64,000 nt of DNA from positions 1 through 64,000 of IMG/VR virus record IMGVR_UViG_3300036772_000557. The stretch is one strand, 5' to 3'. Under the pieces are notes generated by a model. That model was given only the letters and a program-made list of their open reading frames with translations. It made no database searches and was not told the origin of the DNA. This document shows positions 2,564 through 58,466 of the stretch, one piece after another; position 1 is the first letter of the stretch; each line of letters opens with the position of its first letter. Source of the stretch: a virus. The translations under genes and the position numbers were made by a program.

Positions 2564-3012
2564 CGCGATTTCCCATCAACGAGACGAAGCGCTCGCTCTG
2601 CCATCTCAATTGTGTCACGCGATAGCAAATCCAGCGCTCGCCCCCGGCGACCGCCCTCCCCACATTCGATCAATAGCCGCCTAAGGGCGTGGTATAGAGC
2701 GGGGCCAGCCGACCGCTGAAGGCGCTCAGTCTCCTGCGGCGTAACTACGCGCGTTTGTGGGTTGCGCGCCTTTAACTCCGCGTAACTCATCAAGTCCCGA
2801 CCTTCCACGCGATCAGGCTGTGTCATCGCCGCCTTGGCGTCATCACAACATTCGATACAAATCCGAACATTACCAGGTCCAGCGACGGGGCGATGCTGAA
2901 GTTCCGCTTCAGATCGAGCACAAAACGAGCAATAGACAACAGGGGTGATCATCTCTGCAAGTTTCCATAGCTTGCCTGATCTGTCCATCTGATAACTCGC
3001 GATGCGTTTCAT
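2560..3012 (-). CDS. ClpX-type C4 zinc-finger protein (150 aa)
   Basis: C28-x2-C31 and C52-x2-C55 with the interval AGPGNVRICIECC match the zf-C4_ClpX domain, which in ClpX mediates dimerisation and binds adaptors and substrates. No AAA+ domain follows, so this is a detached finger plus a helical C-terminus. GGAGGG six bases upstream supports the start at 3012; an internal ATG at 2952 would again begin MITP. It could interfere with host ClpXP or act as an adaptor (inference). Confidence 0.75.
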   Translation of the reverse strand: MKRIASYQMDRSGKLWKLAEMITPVVYCSFCARSEAELQHRPVAGPGNVRICIECCDDAKAAMTQPDRVEGRDLMSYAELKARNPQTRVVTPQETERLQRSAGPALYHALRRLLIECGEGGRRGRALDLLSRDTIEMAERALRLVDGKSR

Positions 3013-3013
3013 A

Positions 3014-3052
3014 TCATTCCCTCCGTTCCATGGGGTTGGGTGGGGTGATCAT
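3014..3052 (-). CDS. 12-codon leader ORF (MITPPNPMERRE)
   Basis: A minute ORF whose ATG overlaps the stop of the upstream gene and whose stop ends one base before the ATG of the ClpX-finger gene. The GGAGGG Shine-Dalgarno of that gene lies within it. It starts ATGATCACCCC like the following ORF starts. Most likely a translational coupling device rather than a functional peptide. Confidence 0.35.
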   Translation of the reverse strand: MITPPNPMERRE

Positions 3053-3339
3053 GGCTGCAAAATTGCCGCTATTGCTGGCTCGACGAGGTCACGAAATGCT
3101 GACTCGTGATAGGATTTCGTGTCATAAATAACTTCGCCGCTAAAAAACTCGATATGGCCAAGACGCTGGACGTTTTTACTTATGTGACCATCGCTATCGA
3201 TAAAGCGCCCATCGAAATAAATGCGGCTCTTGCCGTTCTTCTCCCACACCTTGGCGCTCAGCAAATAGGTTCCGTAACCTGAAGTGACTAGGCGCTCACC
3301 GTTCAGCGCGGCAGATATTTTTTCGATTAGCTTAGGCAT
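3049..3339 (-). CDS. Hypothetical protein, first gene of leftward early operon (96 aa)
   Basis: No recognised family. Mixed alpha/beta composition with IYFDGRFIDSDGHISK in the middle. The start at 3339 (or 3342) is set by the promoter at 3364-3392, which lies inside the longer 121-codon reading, and by GGAG just upstream. Confidence 0.6.
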   Translation of the reverse strand: MPKLIEKISAALNGERLVTSGYGTYLLSAKVWEKNGKSRIYFDGRFIDSDGHISKNVQRLGHIEFFSGEVIYDTKSYHESAFRDLVEPAIAAILQP

Positions 3340-3363
3340 CATTCCCTCCGTTCCACCACCCTC

Positions 3364-3392
3364 AATATAGAATCTCCGGAACGCCACGTCAA
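3364..3392 (-). promoter_or_regulatory. Sigma70-type promoter, leftward
   Basis: On the minus strand TTGACG (3392-3387), a 17-base spacer, then TATATT (3369-3364). The predicted transcript begins about 20 bases before the first start codon. It drives the small-gene operon running to 148 and has the same hexamers and spacing as the rightward promoter 30 bases away. Confidence 0.75.
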
Positions 3393-3421
3393 GTTTTTTC
3401 TCATCCCGACGCATATTTTCA

Positions 3422-3450
3422 TTGACGACCTCACGAGGCCACCCTATATT
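3422..3450 (+). promoter_or_regulatory. Sigma70-type promoter, rightward
   Basis: TTGACG (3422-3427), 17 bases, TATATT (3445-3450). It leaves a leader of about 125 bases before the first rightward gene at 3584; no gene is convincing inside that leader. Mirror partner of the promoter at 3364-3392. Confidence 0.75.
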
Positions 3451-3583
3451 CCAATCATCAGAAACGAACCAACGCCATTCCCGTGAAAAAGGCCGGGGTC
3501 GCTACCTCCTCTAAGCCGGAGACGCGGGGATGGGTCGCGGTGATGAGACACCGCCTGATGAGAGCCAGCGAGGACGAAACCCA

Positions 3584-3883
3584 ATGCGCAACACGAATTA
3601 CTTCGGCCGGAAGATTGGCGCCGTTGTTACCGAGAAGCGCCGCGGCACGGTCTCTAGCGTGGTGGTCGGCGATGTTCGCCGCTTCACCGCCAACGAGCAG
3701 GAAATGGGGTCTGGCATCCTCAAGTTCATTCCTAAGATCGAATTGTCGGGCCCGGCTGCGAAGCGCATCGCTATAGGCCTCAGCGCTCTCAAAGCCGCGC
3801 AATGGAAACATGGTTGTGCCACTTGGGACTGCCTCGGCGATTACGACACCATGCTGTACTCGTATCGTGAGCGGGCGGCTTAG
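3584..3883 (+). CDS. Hypothetical protein, first gene of rightward array (99 aa)
   Basis: Starts MRNTNYFGRKIGAVVTEKRR. The ATG at 3584 is chosen for the leader AGGACGAAACCCA, closely matching the leaders at 3919, 4503 and 5871. Contains a C-terminal CATWDCLGDYDTML segment. No family recognised. A 149-codon reading on the opposite strand here is treated as a shadow. Confidence 0.55.
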   Translation: MRNTNYFGRKIGAVVTEKRRGTVSSVVVGDVRRFTANEQEMGSGILKFIPKIELSGPAAKRIAIGLSALKAAQWKHGCATWDCLGDYDTMLYSYRERAA

Positions 3884-3931
3884 GCCGCCTTCCGCTTTCC
3901 CCCTCAACCCGATGAGCAGGAGCGAAACCCA

Positions 3932-4468
3932 ATGAGCGAGACGGAGTTTCCCGCAGAGGTCGTCAAGGACGCCACCCTCCCTAACGCTTGGCGAGTCGAA
4001 AAGCTTGATAGCGATGGCGACGGTGGTGTCGATCTAGCGATCTTCGATGGCCCAAATGCAGAAGCGCGAGCGCGGGAATATGCAGCCTGGAAATATGGAT
4101 CAAACGGCAGCAAGATCATCGCCGGGCTGCAGGATGCGCTTGCGCATGTTCGCGGCGATGTGACGGCTGCGCGTGTGTCCACAGTCAGCGATCCAGAACG
4201 CGAGAAGATGACGAAGTCTCAAGTGTGCGCTGATCGACTCCTTGGTGCAGCCGGGTTTGGCCCAGACGTTTTCGATACCGAGGAAGGCCACTTTGCTGGC
4301 TATGATCCAATGCTCAGCGCTTTCCTGTATCGCAAGGGGAAGATGCACGTCGCTGTACGACCCGATGGTCGGTTTGAATGGCACACCGACAGCGGGCGGT
4401 TTGGCGGCGGCGGCAAAGCCACGCTTGACGACGAAAGCATCGAAAGTCTCGCCCGTGCTACAGAATAG
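3932..4468 (+). CDS. Hypothetical protein (178 aa)
   Basis: Acidic N-terminal half (KLDSDGDGGVDLAIFDGP), then a region of alternating strands (FLYRKGKMHVAVRPDGRFEW) and a glycine-rich stretch (GRFGGGG). The leader AGGAGCGAAACCCA precedes the ATG. Largest gene of the array; its stop lies in the first copy of the intergenic repeat. Function unknown. Confidence 0.6.
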   Translation: MSETEFPAEVVKDATLPNAWRVEKLDSDGDGGVDLAIFDGPNAEARAREYAAWKYGSNGSKIIAGLQDALAHVRGDVTAARVSTVSDPEREKMTKSQVCADRLLGAAGFGPDVFDTEEGHFAGYDPMLSAFLYRKGKMHVAVRPDGRFEWHTDSGRFGGGGKATLDDESIESLARATE

Positions 4469-4515
4469 GCAAGCCGCCCGAACACCGACGAAACTGAGGA
4501 TCAGGAGTGAAACCC

Positions 4516-4701
4516 ATGAATCTCACGGACAGGCTTTATCGCGCCCTCGCGGTCCTGGTAGCGCAACATGATCGGCCACACGGCTTTAGCGATGAGCATT
4601 GGTATCGCGAGGCGCTTGAAACGGCGCGCGCCGCTCTAGCAGACGCCTTCGTGGAAATGAACTCATCAGACAACGCCACAGACAGTGGATCGCCACAATA
4701 G
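4516..4701 (+). CDS. Hypothetical small protein (61 aa)
   Basis: MNLTDRLYRALAVLVAQHDR, largely helical, ending in GSPQ. The start at 4516 has AGGAG eight bases upstream (AGGAGTGAAACCC). The last codons and stop form the left arm and loop of the repeated hairpin described for this array. Confidence 0.55.
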   Translation: MNLTDRLYRALAVLVAQHDRPHGFSDEHWYREALETARAALADAFVEMNSSDNATDSGSPQ

Positions 4702-4763
4702 GCGAGCAGCCCCGAACACCGATGAAATCAACTACTTACACGTCTGTCGAACAGGAGGAACTG

Positions 4764-4985
4764 ATGCTCGGTACCAACAAACCAATTTGGTGGAGCCCAA
4801 CAATGCCGCACGACGAGGTCACGATTGACGAGCGCCTAAGAAACCTCGGTTATACGCACAGCAAGTCTCGACTCCTAGCTTATGCATCGACAGGAAAGCA
4901 CGAAATTCGCGATCCGCAGGGCAATGTGGTTGGACACTTCACTGCCAGCGAAGCGTGCGAGTTACTCGCTCGTCTCGGTGGGTAA
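4764..4985 (+). CDS. Hypothetical small protein (73 aa)
   Basis: Starts MLGTNKPIWWSP; the ATG at 4764 has AGGAGGA close upstream and is preferred to the ATG at 4722, which lies in the intergenic repeat. Contains DERLRNLGYTHSKSRLLAYA, then a small beta segment (HEIRDPQGNVVGHFTASE). No family recognised. Confidence 0.55.
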   Translation: MLGTNKPIWWSPTMPHDEVTIDERLRNLGYTHSKSRLLAYASTGKHEIRDPQGNVVGHFTASEACELLARLGG

Positions 4986-5015
4986 TAGGCGAGCAGCCCG
5001 AACACCGAGGAAATC

Positions 5016-5216
5016 ATGACCGTTAAAATAAATCCACAAAATCTCCCGCCAGACAAGGCGCGCCACACAATAACAATCGGACGTGGCGGCGGGCGAGCTC
5101 TCATCATCAACGGCAAGTTTTTCTTGCCAAAAAAGGGAACTGAAGACGAATGGATATCTGACGATGGATCAACGATCCAGGGAACAAAACATACAGACGG
5201 TTGCTCGCCACAATAG
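5016..5216 (+). CDS. Hypothetical small protein (66 aa)
   Basis: Beta-rich (ARHTITIGRGGGRALIING) and ending CSPQ. GAGG lies five bases upstream of the ATG, supplied by the intergenic repeat copy at 4984-5015. Its 3' end forms one arm of the next repeat copy. Unknown function. Confidence 0.55.
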   Translation: MTVKINPQNLPPDKARHTITIGRGGGRALIINGKFFLPKKGTEDEWISDDGSTIQGTKHTDGCSPQ

Positions 5217-5261
5217 GCGAGCAGCAGGAACACCGCCGAAATCCAATCATTGGAGGAGCAG

Positions 5262-5492
5262 ATGAACGATACCGCCTACGAGATCCGCAACTGCTACATT
5301 AGCAACGGCGAGGAAATCGTTGCGGAGCGTCTTTATGGCTATTTCGATTACACCGAGCTCGAAGAGTTTATTCAACGCTTTATTCGTAGCATTCTGGCTC
5401 CAGGCTGGAGGTCGTACCTGAGCATCGTGGATCACGACGGAAGAGAACGAAATTTCGTGAAATACGCCGCAGACGGCGGCTCGCCACAATAG
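5262..5492 (+). CDS. Hypothetical small protein (76 aa)
   Basis: MNDTAYEIRNCYISNGEEIV, mixed alpha/beta, ending GGSPQ. GGAGGAG three bases upstream fixes the start at 5262. Terminal codons again lie in the GCTCGCC-ACAATA-GGCGAGC hairpin. Confidence 0.55.
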   Translation: MNDTAYEIRNCYISNGEEIVAERLYGYFDYTELEEFIQRFIRSILAPGWRSYLSIVDHDGRERNFVKYAADGGSPQ

Positions 5493-5522
5493 GCGAGCAG
5501 CCCGAACACCGGAGAGCAAACG

Positions 5523-5753
5523 ATGTTTAAATTCGAGCCAGCGTTCGGCGAGTCAGATCGCCAGCATGAGGTAACCGACTGGAGCCAAGCAAAGGACCAA
5601 TTTTTGGAGCACCAAACTTACGAAGGCGCTGAACGCTATATCCTGACTACCCTATCGCTTCTCAAAGGGAACCTGATTGGTAACGACGAATATCGGACCA
5701 TGATCCGGCGCGTCGGGAAGTTCATTGACGCGTTCGGCGTCTACACACCTTAA
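5523..5753 (+). CDS. Hypothetical small protein (76 aa)
   Basis: Begins MFKFEPAFGESDRQHEV, mostly helical with a C-terminal RRVGKFIDAFG. GGAGAG seven bases upstream of the ATG. It ends YTP rather than SPQ, so the 3' arm of the hairpin is missing here, but the downstream part of the repeat is intact. Confidence 0.55.
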   Translation: MFKFEPAFGESDRQHEVTDWSQAKDQFLEHQTYEGAERYILTTLSLLKGNLIGNDEYRTMIRRVGKFIDAFGVYTP

Positions 5754-5786
5754 AATAGGCGAGCAGCCCGAACACCGATGAAATTA

Positions 5787-5859
5787 CCCCGTGCGAGTCG
5801 CAGAGCCCGGCCGAAGAGGTCGGGCCGAACAACGGGTGCAAATCCCGTGACGGGGGCCA
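5787..5859 (+). tRNA. tRNA-like element (T-arm, acceptor and CCA; degenerate D-arm)
   Basis: CCCCGTG (5787-5793) pairs with GACGGGG (5849-5855) except at the last position, followed by G and CCA (5857-5859). A perfect T-arm ACGGG-TGCAAAT-CCCGT spans 5832-5848. A stem-loop CCGGC-CGAAGAG-GTCGG (5807-5823) occupies the anticodon-arm position, but it lacks U33 and would read AAG. The D-arm region is too short (13 bases). It may be a decayed tRNA or a tRNA mimic and is probably not a working decoder. It lies in the non-coding end of the array, 5754-5884. Confidence 0.45.
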
Positions 5860-5884
5860 ACCAGATGAGCAGGAGCGAAACCCT

Positions 5885-5965
5885 ATGATTATCGCGATGA
5901 TATGCCTTAGTGCCCTAATCACGGCATGGATGGCTACTACCGATACCCCGAGCGCCGCTGCATAA
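5885..5965 (+). CDS. 26-aa single-span membrane peptide
   Basis: MIIAMICLSALITAWMATTD plus six residues. The start is preceded by AGGAGCGAAACCCT, the same leader used by other genes in this block, which argues for translation. The hydrophobic core suits one membrane helix. Confidence 0.5.
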   Translation: MIIAMICLSALITAWMATTDTPSAAA

Positions 5966-6019
5966 CCTTATTCAAAGAGGAGTAACCGATCGAGGAACCG
6001 ATCACCCCTGCTGACGGGG

Positions 6020-6047
6020 CCGCCCCTGAATATCGAGGCAGGGGCGG
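6020..6047. terminator. Bidirectional hairpin between convergent operons
   Basis: CCGCCCCTG (6020-6028) and CAGGGGCGG (6039-6047) form a perfect nine-base-pair stem with a ten-base loop, between the rightward array and the leftward operon ending at 6124. No strong U-tract follows on either strand, so termination may be partial. Nothing else is seen in 5966-6123. Confidence 0.5.
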
Positions 6048-6123: not shown

Positions 6124-7974
6124 TCATGCCAACCCATAAGCGATGACTCGGGCATCGTATGGCGTCAGATACAGGATGCCGTCTGCGACTACAGGACCGA
6201 GAAATTTATTGAAGTCGAACTCATGGTTCCATCGTTGGCTGTCCCAGATGAGCGGGATCACTGCCCCGTTCGGACCCTCCTTGAACTGCGTCAGGTCATA
6301 GCCGAGCAGCCGACCGCGCGTGACCTCGCGGTTGGCGTCGCCGTAAGGGATGGTGGCGAACAAGACTGGTGTCTCAGCGGGTCGCGCCTGATCGTAGCAC
6401 AGGGACATGAACCCGCCCGGCATCCCGCCGGGGGGGACCGCCGCCTCGGGGCTGGCGTATTCCTCGCCGGCCGCGAGATAGGTGATTTTCACGTGGGGGG
6501 AGAGGCCGTGGATCGGCTCGATGCTCCACATCCGCAGGGTACTGTTCTCGCCCCAGCAGAGAAGCCGCCACCCCTGCGGGCTTTTCCATACGATCGGTGA
6601 GCCGTGCTGATGGTGTGTCCGACTGTAAAAAAGCTTGTTGAGATCCCTGATGTCGCTGGGCATCGGGCTTGCATCGGACGTGTAAAAGGTGAACCATATC
6701 GGTAGGCACGCCAACGCCATGTAATTTTTTGCGATCCCCTGCGCGGTCGACAGCATTTCCGGCGTCGTGCCGCCCATCGCGTTCAGGCGGACCGCGTAGA
6801 GGATGCCGTCCTTCCCAGAGACGAGGCAGAGCTCGAGCTCCTCGATGACGACCGGACCGCCCGAACCGAGATCCATGTCGATCGCCTCGGCCGGATTAAG
6901 CGGGACGTTGCCCGTGGCGGCATCTATCCTCTCGGCCGGCACCATCGCATAGCGCCGTAGGTTAGTGGGCGGCCGTTCCCGACGCGTCTGCTGAGCGATC
7001 TGTGTTGCCGCGACAACCGTTTCCGGCACCGTAACGGAAACCGCTTTCGGGGCCGCTACGCGGGCGCTATCGAGGAAGGGGCTCCAATGGTCGACCACCT
7101 TCAGTTCGCCCATCAGGGCGGGCCCGGGCGGCGTGTAGCGCAGCTTGATGACGCACTCTCCCCACTCGGTCTTGCCATCGAAGGTGCCGTTGCCGGTTAC
7201 CAGGATGATGTCGCCCTTGCTGTCGGCCGCGAGCCCCGCACCGGCCTGCCAGATACCGCCTCCCGAACCGATGACCGCGGTGCACAATGTGGCGGTGACT
7301 CTCCACAGCCGGACGTCGACGGCGATCACCCAGCCGCGGTTCGATGCGTCAATCTCGTAGATCGAGCCGAACCCGATGAACACGGTTTGCCCGAGCATCA
7401 GCAACGATGCCCGTTGCTTGCGGGCCGCGCTCGCGAATTTCTGTGGCGGGATCCCGCCGGGATCGTAGACAGCGCCCTCGAGGTCGAGCGGCTGCTTCGC
7501 GCGCGCTCCCGAGACGAGCGAGACCGCCTCGAGGAAGTGCCGAGCTCGAGCCACCGACCCGTCAGGGCTCGCCCAGCTGCAGGCGTAGAGCGTCTGGGTC
7601 GCCGGGTCGATGACTGGGGTCGACAGAATTCCCCAGTGGTCGTTAACAGCCCATCCGTCTATCGATTTATTGCCGTCGATCGGCCGACCGAGTTCGCGCT
7701 TCCAAAGCTCCGCACCAGTCTTCGCATCCGCACAGACGATCTCGTTCGCCATGGTCGCTACGACGAGCAGGTCGTGCACCTGGCCGTTCGTGAGACGCAC
7801 GCCCGGCAGGGTCAGGGGCTGCGCCTCAGCGCCGCGCGCGTCTCCCGGGAGGGGAAGCTCGTAGAGTTTTTTGATCCCGCGCGTCGCGACCGCCTGGGCC
7901 GTCAGAACGGTTTCGTTGGGATTCACCCCGGCGTTATCGGTCGTGTAGGCGCGGCGCGTGACCGCGACTGCCAT
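6124..7974 (-). CDS. PQQ-like beta-propeller protein (616 aa)
   Basis: Repeated blades of the quinoprotein type are visible: DAKTGAELWKRELGRP, then DHWGILSTPVIDPATQTLYA, a third around GLAADSKGDIILVTGNGTFD, and later GPVVIEELELCLVSGKDGIL and VVADGILYLTPYDARVIAYG. No signal peptide is seen, unlike periplasmic quinoprotein dehydrogenases, so this may be a structural or binding propeller. The start at 7974 is chosen because GGAG lies seven bases upstream and TAATG couples it to the preceding stop. Last gene of the operon after the amylase-like gene; rare cargo for a phage. Confidence 0.75.
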   Translation of the reverse strand: MAVAVTRRAYTTDNAGVNPNETVLTAQAVATRGIKKLYELPLPGDARGAEAQPLTLPGVRLTNGQVHDLLVVATMANEIVCADAKTGAELWKRELGRPIDGNKSIDGWAVNDHWGILSTPVIDPATQTLYACSWASPDGSVARARHFLEAVSLVSGARAKQPLDLEGAVYDPGGIPPQKFASAARKQRASLLMLGQTVFIGFGSIYEIDASNRGWVIAVDVRLWRVTATLCTAVIGSGGGIWQAGAGLAADSKGDIILVTGNGTFDGKTEWGECVIKLRYTPPGPALMGELKVVDHWSPFLDSARVAAPKAVSVTVPETVVAATQIAQQTRRERPPTNLRRYAMVPAERIDAATGNVPLNPAEAIDMDLGSGGPVVIEELELCLVSGKDGILYAVRLNAMGGTTPEMLSTAQGIAKNYMALACLPIWFTFYTSDASPMPSDIRDLNKLFYSRTHHQHGSPIVWKSPQGWRLLCWGENSTLRMWSIEPIHGLSPHVKITYLAAGEEYASPEAAVPPGGMPGGFMSLCYDQARPAETPVLFATIPYGDANREVTRGRLLGYDLTQFKEGPNGAVIPLIWDSQRWNHEFDFNKFLGPVVADGILYLTPYDARVIAYGLA

Positions 7975-57048: not shown

Positions 57049-57237
57049 TTACAGCTGTTTGGGCCAGCAATCGAACACGACATTGCTGTCGGGCCACCGC
57101 CGAAAGATTGGATACCAGGACTTCAGATCAGCCCTGCACAGCGCCGCGGTTGGATATGCGTTTCCAATCTCCTGGACGGTGCCTTGGGAGAAGGCAACTA
57201 TTGTCCAGAATAGGATTCCAGATGCCATGAGGCTCAT
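57049..57237 (-). CDS. Small protein with N-terminal hydrophobic segment (62 aa)
   Basis: MSLMASGILFWTIVAFSQGT, then two cysteines (LCRADLKSW, FDCWPKQL) that could form a disulfide if exported. ATGA overlap with the radical SAM stop suggests coupling to that enzyme; it could be its partner or substrate (speculative). Confidence 0.5.
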   Translation of the reverse strand: MSLMASGILFWTIVAFSQGTVQEIGNAYPTAALCRADLKSWYPIFRRWPDSNVVFDCWPKQL

Positions 57238-58466
57238 GGCAAAAGTTCCCGCACCACTGTCCGAGCGTCCGCGAACGGCTCCACCTTGACGACGTGCGCC
57301 GCGCGGTACCGTAGTCGCTCGCGGTCGATCAGATCGCCCCGGAATGTGTCGTATGGCTCCAGCTCGCCGTCGCCGCGCCGTGAGAGGTAATTGCCGTCGA
57401 CCCCATCGCAGACTGGCATCGCGCGGCAAGAGCCGCATTTCTTCGCCGTGAAGACCTTGCCGGCGCCGCGGGCCGCGATAATGTCCGGCCGTTTATCGGT
57501 TGGGTCGGGCATCGTCATGTTCACTTTGAGTGGATAATGCGTCTCGTGATCCCGCAGCGGCAGCCGCCGGCCCATCACCTCGGGATCGGCCGCACCGGGC
57601 TTCGCCATGTGGTCGATCGCGTTCATCCACTCGTGCGGGTCGTGGCGCACGCCGACGACGCCCACGAGGTTTCGCTCGAGCCCCCGCATCGTGCACAGCG
57701 GCGCGTAGCGGACGTTGACGGCGATGCCGGCGGCCTCGAGGATGTCGCGGGCTTCAATCAGATAGGGTCGCACCTCGCTGTAATGCGCTTGCACCTCTGT
57801 CGCCTTGCCGCCAGGTCGCGACCAGGCGTGGTAGGCGTTCATTATGATAAAATTCGCGATGTAGACGCGGTGCGCGGCGATCTCGCGCGCGATCTGCGGC
57901 AGCAATCGAAAGTTCTCTTCGCACACCGTCGTGTTGGTGCCGTAGTCGAACCCGGCGTCGAGATCGGCCATCGCCGCCAGCAATTGCCGCCAAGAGCCGC
58001 CGGTGATCGATGAGAATCGCTCCTCGTCGACGGCATGAATCGACAGCAGGAAATCGGCCACGCCGGCGTCAAGTAGGCCAGCGAGCAGCGTCGGATACCC
58101 CGCCGCTGATTTCATCTTTCGCTTCAGGTATTGCCCGAGCGTGATGATGCGCGGCGCGAGGCCGACCTTGCGGGCGTGCACGACGAGCTCAACGATCCCC
58201 GGGTGGAGACACGGCTCGCCGCCGGTGACGTCGAAGCCGAGGAAGCCGTTGGCGTTGAGGGACGAAGCGAGCCGCTTGATATGGTCGGTCGAGTGGAACT
58301 CGGCCGTGCGCATCCCGGCGAACTGATCAGCCTCATCATTCAACCAGGAGTAGTAGCACCACTGACAGCTATGGACGCACTTCAGGCCGACATCCACGAC
58401 GCCCCACCGCGACAGGCGGCCGGGTTCGTGGAGATGGACTCCAACGAGAGCCTCTTTGGAATCCAT
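57234..58466 (-). CDS. Radical SAM enzyme (410 aa)
   Basis: C30-x3-C34-x2-C37 (CVHSCQWCYY) binds the radical SAM [4Fe-4S] cluster; TGGEPC at 81-86 is the GGE S-adenosylmethionine motif. A C-terminal group C344-x2-C347-x5-C353 (CGSCRAMPVC), with C258, could hold an auxiliary cluster of SPASM/twitch type. Such enzymes modify peptides, proteins or small molecules. GGGAG upstream of the ATG. It lies between the tail tube gene and the glycosyltransferase. Confidence 0.85.
   Translation of the reverse strand: MDSKEALVGVHLHEPGRLSRWGVVDVGLKCVHSCQWCYYSWLNDEADQFAGMRTAEFHSTDHIKRLASSLNANGFLGFDVTGGEPCLHPGIVELVVHARKVGLAPRIITLGQYLKRKMKSAAGYPTLLAGLLDAGVADFLLSIHAVDEERFSSITGGSWRQLLAAMADLDAGFDYGTNTTVCEENFRLLPQIAREIAAHRVYIANFIIMNAYHAWSRPGGKATEVQAHYSEVRPYLIEARDILEAAGIAVNVRYAPLCTMRGLERNLVGVVGVRHDPHEWMNAIDHMAKPGAADPEVMGRRLPLRDHETHYPLKVNMTMPDPTDKRPDIIAARGAGKVFTAKKCGSCRAMPVCDGVDGNYLSRRGDGELEPYDTFRGDLIDRERLRYRAAHVVKVEPFADARTVVRELLP

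Follow-up and report, generated by a model that had tools for sequence, protein, structure and literature searches.

A ribozyme-led array of small orphan genes with repeats at the gene junctions in a soil phage genome

Small genes and junction repeats

We analyzed a window of 64,000 nucleotides (positions 1 to 64,000) within the 90,448-bp record of a soil phage, IMGVR_UViG_3300036772_000557. The capsid protein of this phage is 71–76% identical to the capsids of the best 80 of 123 IMG/VR contigs and 73–74% identical to capsids on contigs in three alphaproteobacterial MAGs. The locus comprises eight small rightward genes, A to H, together with a promoter, a ribozyme and two families of repeats (Table 1). 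No array gene belongs to a Pfam or PHROG family, the four that were compared with 50,697 phage records have no relative there, and the 178-aa product of gene B, used as bait, recovered none. The products are also unrelated to one another, no protein pair scoring above shuffled sequences at p < 0.03 once the SPQ tails described below were trimmed. Elsewhere in the window, positions 57234–58466 (minus strand) encode a 410-aa protein that has a CxxxCxxC-like motif near its start and looks radical-SAM-like by eye; one IMG/VR relative was found (L009, 62% identical).

Table 1 Features of the small-gene operon in window coordinates
Feature	Position	Strand	Remarks
Sigma-70-like promoter of the rightward operon	3422..3450	+	TTGACG-17-TATATT; 10/12 consensus matches
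Type III hammerhead ribozyme, gene A 5' UTR	3532..3583	+	cleavage predicted after 3536
Gene A	3584..3883	+	99 aa, orphan
Gene B start leader	3905..3931	+	R1 match 3869-3934, 10.6 bits
Gene B	3932..4468	+	178 aa, orphan
Junction repeat copy 1	4464..4495	+	2 mismatches in core
Gene C start leader, more decayed	4494..4515	+	R1 match 4494-4519, 5.7 bits, not significant alone
Gene C	4516..4701	+	61 aa, SPQ end
Junction repeat copy 2	4697..4729	+	one inserted C
Gene D	4764..4985	+	73 aa, Shine-Dalgarno sequence AGGAGG
Junction repeat copy 3	4984..5015	+	supplies Shine-Dalgarno sequence of gene E
Gene E	5016..5216	+	66 aa, SPQ end
Junction repeat copy 4	5212..5243	+	10-bp hairpin with gene E end
Gene F	5262..5492	+	76 aa, SPQ end
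Junction repeat copy 5	5488..5511	+	7-bp hairpin with gene F end; supplies Shine-Dalgarno sequence of gene G
Gene G	5523..5753	+	76 aa
Junction repeat copy 6	5754..5785	+	
Gene H start leader	5858..5884	+	R1 match 5813-5887, 14 bits
Gene H	5885..5965	+	26 aa, small hydrophobic peptide

The junction repeat consists of a core, AATAGGCGAGCAGCCCGAACACCG, and a tail, GAACACCGNNGAAAYC. The core occurs with 0–2 mismatches in five copies (1 and 3 to 6) on one strand within 1.3 kb, compared with a chance expectation of zero in 100 shuffles, and copy 2 adds a sixth with its single inserted base. All six are on the plus strand and sit where a small open reading frame ends, which bears out the original prediction of six copies between unrelated small genes. 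In three copies, the 24-nt core is identical. The prediction that unrelated genes end in the same SPQ peptide also holds, for genes C, E and F, with the correction that the shared element is a 40-nt repeat, 78–90% identical, which reaches into the coding ends; genes whose bodies have no similarity thus have about 24 coding nucleotides at their 3' ends in common. These three ends are most simply explained if a duplication or exchange had its endpoints within the coding sequence.

The small genes might instead be old tandem duplicates that diverged past recognition, with the junctions as the leftover of the duplicated unit. Similar gene sizes, the shared SPQ coding ends and the restriction of the array to one locus are all compatible with such a history, but the gene bodies retain no residual similarity; because the junctions are nearly identical while the bodies are unrelated, the junctions would need to have escaped divergence. 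In addition, a fragment of a sister phage (L240, see below) has leader elements in common with the window beside other genes. We therefore consider tandem duplication distinctly unlikely.

The core appears to be peculiar to this genome. The whole 90,448-bp record holds no further copy outside the array, and a search allowing up to three core mismatches did not find the full core in 49 related phage records, 3 MAGs or 385 alphaproteobacterial genomes, where isolated matches stayed near the control level. The sole exact core match in IMG/VR (L006) lies in surroundings that by eye are high-GC and coding, without an array, and was taken as chance. Relatives retrieved through the capsid and terminase yielded mostly structural regions and not the array, and a BLAST search of the array and two ribozyme 5' UTRs against the phage database returned nothing significant.

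These searches bear on the idea that a regulator encoded by the phage or its host, either a protein or a small RNA, binds the core and controls every gene of the array, the gene ends being where such sites fit. An identical stretch of 24 nt is longer than a stop codon or a Shine-Dalgarno (SD) sequence needs, and start-associated sequences of mycobacteriophages have likewise been left open as binding sites (PMC3203893). Against this, a regulator site would have to be confined to the array within the record, no candidate regulator was found, and the alphaproteobacterial genomes lack the core, so that we regard this explanation as unlikely.

Stop codons and Shine-Dalgarno sequences at the junctions

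The original prediction placed the stop codon in the loop of a hairpin formed by the last codons of a gene and the repeat core. This arrangement is strong at two copies, with stems of 10 bp at 5216 (fold z = -3.8) and 7 bp at 5492 (z = -4.7), and weaker at a third (5 bp, at 4701), but the remaining three copies form only 2–4 bp. The TAG spans the hairpin loop and the 3' arm. Across the genome, 8.7% of all stop triplets can occupy the loop of a hairpin whose stem has 6 bp or more; in the operon, three of the eight genes (A, E and F) have such a stop hairpin, which is only weakly unusual, and two of them are duplicates of one end. Given this background and the duplicated origin of the strong cases, the hairpin argues only weakly for a signal. 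On the best reading, it is part of the duplicated SPQ ends rather than a conserved site of processing.

Processing at these hairpins, by a host RNase or a ribozyme that cuts at the stop codon and releases single-gene mRNAs, as has been thought for intergenic phage hammerheads, would fit the strong folding at two gene ends and the strict conservation, in three copies, of the core beyond the hairpin arm; related operons do carry intergenic hammerheads (PMC3088659). The hairpin is, however, missing or reduced in four of the six copies. No T tract accompanies the repeat hairpins and the junctions contain no terminator-like match; no plus-strand promoter match lies inside them. Neither an Rfam search of the whole region nor a high-sensitivity search over 5180–5560 matched an RNA family at the repeats. 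Between 4464 and 5785, the junction repeats have no recognizable hammerhead core and stems, and scores of our hammerhead model R1 (see below) are at background, near zero. The predicted RNA processing at gene ends is thus not supported, and we judge this explanation improbable.

The repeat was also predicted to supply SD sequences downstream. It does so in copy 3 (GAGGAAATC-ATG) and copy 5 (GGAGAGCAAACG-ATG), but not in the other four of the six copies. A role in coupling neighboring genes, likewise part of the prediction, stands only insofar as the repeats carry stops and, in those two copies, an SD sequence.

Two structured stretches follow the last repeat. Positions 5786–5858 (plus strand) fold into a cloverleaf-like shape whose stems resemble a T arm and an acceptor (fold z -2.8); a tRNA was rejected here, with ARAGORN negative and a weak match to the Tymo tRNA-like family (E 0.16). 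At 6020–6047, a perfect 9-bp inverted repeat (CCGCCCCTG/CAGGGGCGG) separates the end of the operon from the convergent leftward gene at 6124; it lacks a T tract but could be a terminator.

A hammerhead ribozyme at the operon front and its putative relics

The original prediction had not included the promoter and hammerhead at the operon front or the second leader family ahead of starts 3932, 4516 and 5885. The element in the 5' UTR of gene A reads GGGTC, GCGGTG-ATGAGA-CACCGC, CTGATGA, GAGCCAGCGAGGAC, GAAACCC and A-ATG over 3532–3586. Its catalytic core is complete (CUGANGA, GAAA, the A15.1-U16.1 pair and H17 at the cleavage site), and it has three helices, with stem III open and covariation in support, although stem II in the window is weak.

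To assemble related elements, IMG/VR was searched with a degenerate pattern that prescribed stem III and the core letters and left stem I and the interior of stem II unconstrained. This yielded 56 stretches; counting the window, stem I has at least 4 bp in 54 of 57 matches. The alignment comprises 38 distinct sequences, with the three matches lacking stem I omitted, which slightly favors this stem. Stem I is paired in 97.8% of its cells, and each of its six pairs includes changes of both partners; it has a covariation score of 0.553, whereas shuffled alignments give 0.113 and slid ones at most 0.098. Stem III was largely prescribed by the search pattern, and it covaries in second copies on other contigs (GCGT/ACGC in L192; CCGT/ACGG in L202).

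Rfam Hammerhead_3 matches the window element with E 1.7e-4 in a short-stretch search, at 27.9 bits compared with a gathering cut-off of 48.5. None of nine other ribozyme loci of the set was recovered at gathering either, which places the cause of the miss in the cut-off rather than in the structure; curated RNA searches at default cut-offs evidently pass over the ribozymes in these nine scanned loci. Our own model, R1, built from the 38 phage hammerheads, gives the window ribozyme 50.5 bits, a score that is not independent because the window is among its training sequences. Sequence and covariation together show that 3532–3583 is a member of the type III hammerhead family. The element is predicted to self-cleave, and this upstream ribozyme, rather than the gene-end hairpins, is the likely processing element of the operon. 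One further R1 match, in a MAG (G052), lacks stem III, lies in a coding-like stretch and was taken as chance.

In L149/L235, the same promoter spacing and TATATT box precede the ribozyme. Positions 3364–3450 of the window hold two divergent promoters, one per strand, with identical hexamers and spacing (TTGACG-17-TATATT), and the leftward small genes have a start leader of their own, TGGAACGGAGGGAATGAT, exact at 3013–3030 and 3338–3355 (minus strand). A conserved 5' UTR stretch with ACCTCCT (about 3497–3530 in the window and 832–800 on the minus strand of L240) was seen in these two phages only; ACCTCCT resembles an anti-Shine-Dalgarno sequence and could be a partner of the SD sequence before cleavage.

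The second repeat family, TGATGAGCAGGAGCGAAACCCAATG and its variants, stands ahead of starts 3584, 3932, 4516 and 5885. An exact 24-mer of this leader precedes a different small gene in L149, and L174 has another instance; read with their preceding bases, the instances at 3584, in L149 and in L174 are type III hammerheads. In an exhaustive R1 scan of 3400–6000, the next three matches after the ribozyme were the other three start leaders. In these, stem I and a usable cleavage site are missing and the AGGAG-bearing part of stem II is retained, and we read the leaders at 3905, 4494 and 5858 as probable decayed 3' halves of the hammerhead.

The SD sequence of gene A (GAGGA) lies within stem II of the ribozyme, and its ATG follows stem III directly. 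The same layout, with the SD sequence in stem II and the start codon 0–1 nt from the end of GAAACCC, occurs in L149, L174, L187/L240 and L190, whereas for almost every other ribozyme of the set whose start was recognized, this start lies 17–32 nt further on. Cleavage as a translational switch that exposes the SD sequence or the AUG was rejected on folding: such a switch is not demonstrated, since folds before and after cleavage show no consistent change in the accessibility of either. Tentatively, and with less confidence than we place in the operon model below, we propose that this phage subgroup possesses a natural self-cleaving ribosome-binding site, with the SD sequence in stem-loop II and the start codon abutting stem III. 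Cleavage and initiation of the first gene may then compete or be coupled, and pieces of the ribozyme copied as leaders, along with the junction repeats, may form a plug-in system for small genes. The role of hammerheads in phages has been described as an open question (PMC6155905); the present arrangement, a hammerhead fused to a ribosome-binding site with apparent decayed halves as leaders of unrelated genes, offers a concrete and testable way to connect self-cleavage and translation starts with the acquisition of small orphan genes by phages.

Related phages, the proposed operon and known systems

The sister phage fragment L240 (5,291 bp) has a 5' UTR 85% identical to that of the window over 95 nt, and its ribozyme has a different but intact stem I (GCCCGG/CCGGGC). 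It shares the left-gene leader TGGAACGGAGGGAATGAT and the relic leader CCGATGAGCAGGAGCG, and it matches the array tail exactly over 14 nt (CGAACACCGACGAA), a score that was reached in 1 of 500 shuffles. The tail is present there in a single copy and the full core is absent; tblastx found no proteins shared with the array. The left-gene leader occurs three times in L240, twice exactly and once with 2 mismatches. A search for sister phages by the conserved 5' UTR returned only this contig (L240/L187). In the more distant phages L149 and L174, this ribozyme leader stands ahead of other genes. The comparison of related phages called for by the original prediction thus comes out in part: L240 has the same signals with other genes, and L149 and L174 the same ribozyme leader, which supports exchange at repeated signals but does not demonstrate it for the core itself, because the full core was found in this genome only.

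Four other phages (L243, L236, L237 and L229) have two or three hammerheads between successive small genes. Together with published prophages (PMC3088659), they make hammerhead processing of small-gene transcripts a known theme, from which the window differs in having one intact front ribozyme and non-ribozyme junctions behind it. The hammerheads lie at 2103–2162, 2469–2529 and 2906–2967 (plus strand) in L243 and at about 2571, 4110 and 5160 (minus strand) in L229, separated by one or two small genes. Promoter-like sequences for individual genes were seen in the hammerhead phages L236, L237, L239 and L242, and inverted repeats of the type TTTAGACGT/ACGTCTAAA, resembling the PeSL elements discussed below, between small genes of L237, L239 and L242.

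With moderate confidence, we interpret the array as the body of a modular small-gene operon, in which a ribozyme leads a series of orphan genes started by leaders, and the junction repeats act as stop-to-start linkers and as homology patches for exchange, their hairpin not being a conserved processing site. In the mechanism that we infer from sequence comparison, the operon would be transcribed from the promoter at 3422–3450, and the transcript would begin with the hammerhead at 3532–3583, which probably cleaves itself and whose stem II would double as the ribosome-binding site of gene A. The orphan genes would follow, each given its start by a leader, three of these being presumed hammerhead 3' halves that keep mainly the SD part. 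At each of the six junctions, the repeat would hold or closely follow the stop of one gene, continue through the fixed core and lead by its tail into the SD sequence of the next gene, or form it, as in two copies. The copies would have arisen by duplication, three of them sharing about 24 nt of coding 3' end, and could serve as short homology patches at which unrelated genes are inserted, lost or exchanged while stop and start are kept, a possibility suggested mainly by L240. Any effect on translation would likewise be a prediction of this mechanism. We thus consider it most likely that the junction repeats are products of duplication that serve as translation linkers and are able to act as exchange patches.

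Several known systems resemble parts of this arrangement. By eye, the array has no obvious GTTRRRY partner of an integron-type attC site. In lambdoid phages, boundary sequences form conserved stop-to-start junctions between exchangeable small genes; by description, they are set apart from the present junctions in being shared between phages, whereas those here are repeated within one genome.

The T4-type PeSL elements, as presented in PMC4503421 after Arbiol 2010 and Comeau 2014, are repeated intergenic regulatory elements proposed to shuffle small orphan genes. By that account a PeSL is a promoter plus a stem-loop, and the present junctions contain neither a promoter match nor a terminator-like stem-loop.

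The SAS and ESAS of cluster K mycobacteriophages are short repeats containing AGGAG directly ahead of the start codons of small genes with non-structural products, which frequently represent different families; in some cases the upstream stop codon falls within the repeat, and ESAS also has inverted repeats (PMC3203893). The leaders before 3932, 4516 and 5885 are likewise SD-containing repeats a few nucleotides before the starts of unrelated genes. They work like SAS, with no sequence homology claimed, and the present system differs in that one leader family is, on our reading, ribozyme-derived and the anchor point of the junction repeat is the stop, not the start.

Closest to the front element are the phage and prophage hammerheads of Perreault et al. 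2011, which include stems II of just two base pairs, clusters flanking genes and some hammerheads placed shortly ahead of a start codon, by 13 nt in haloviruses HF1/HF2 (PMC3088659). They have the same core and stems, in phage transcripts and near small genes of changing identity. Here, in contrast, one intact ribozyme heads the operon with the SD sequence inside stem II, a sequence that the text of PMC3088659 does not mention, and the start abutting stem III, while its 3' half apparently recurs as decayed leaders and the junctions behind are non-ribozyme. The array thus touches prophage hammerheads, SAS/ESAS and PeSL, and we regard it as a new variant of these known kinds.
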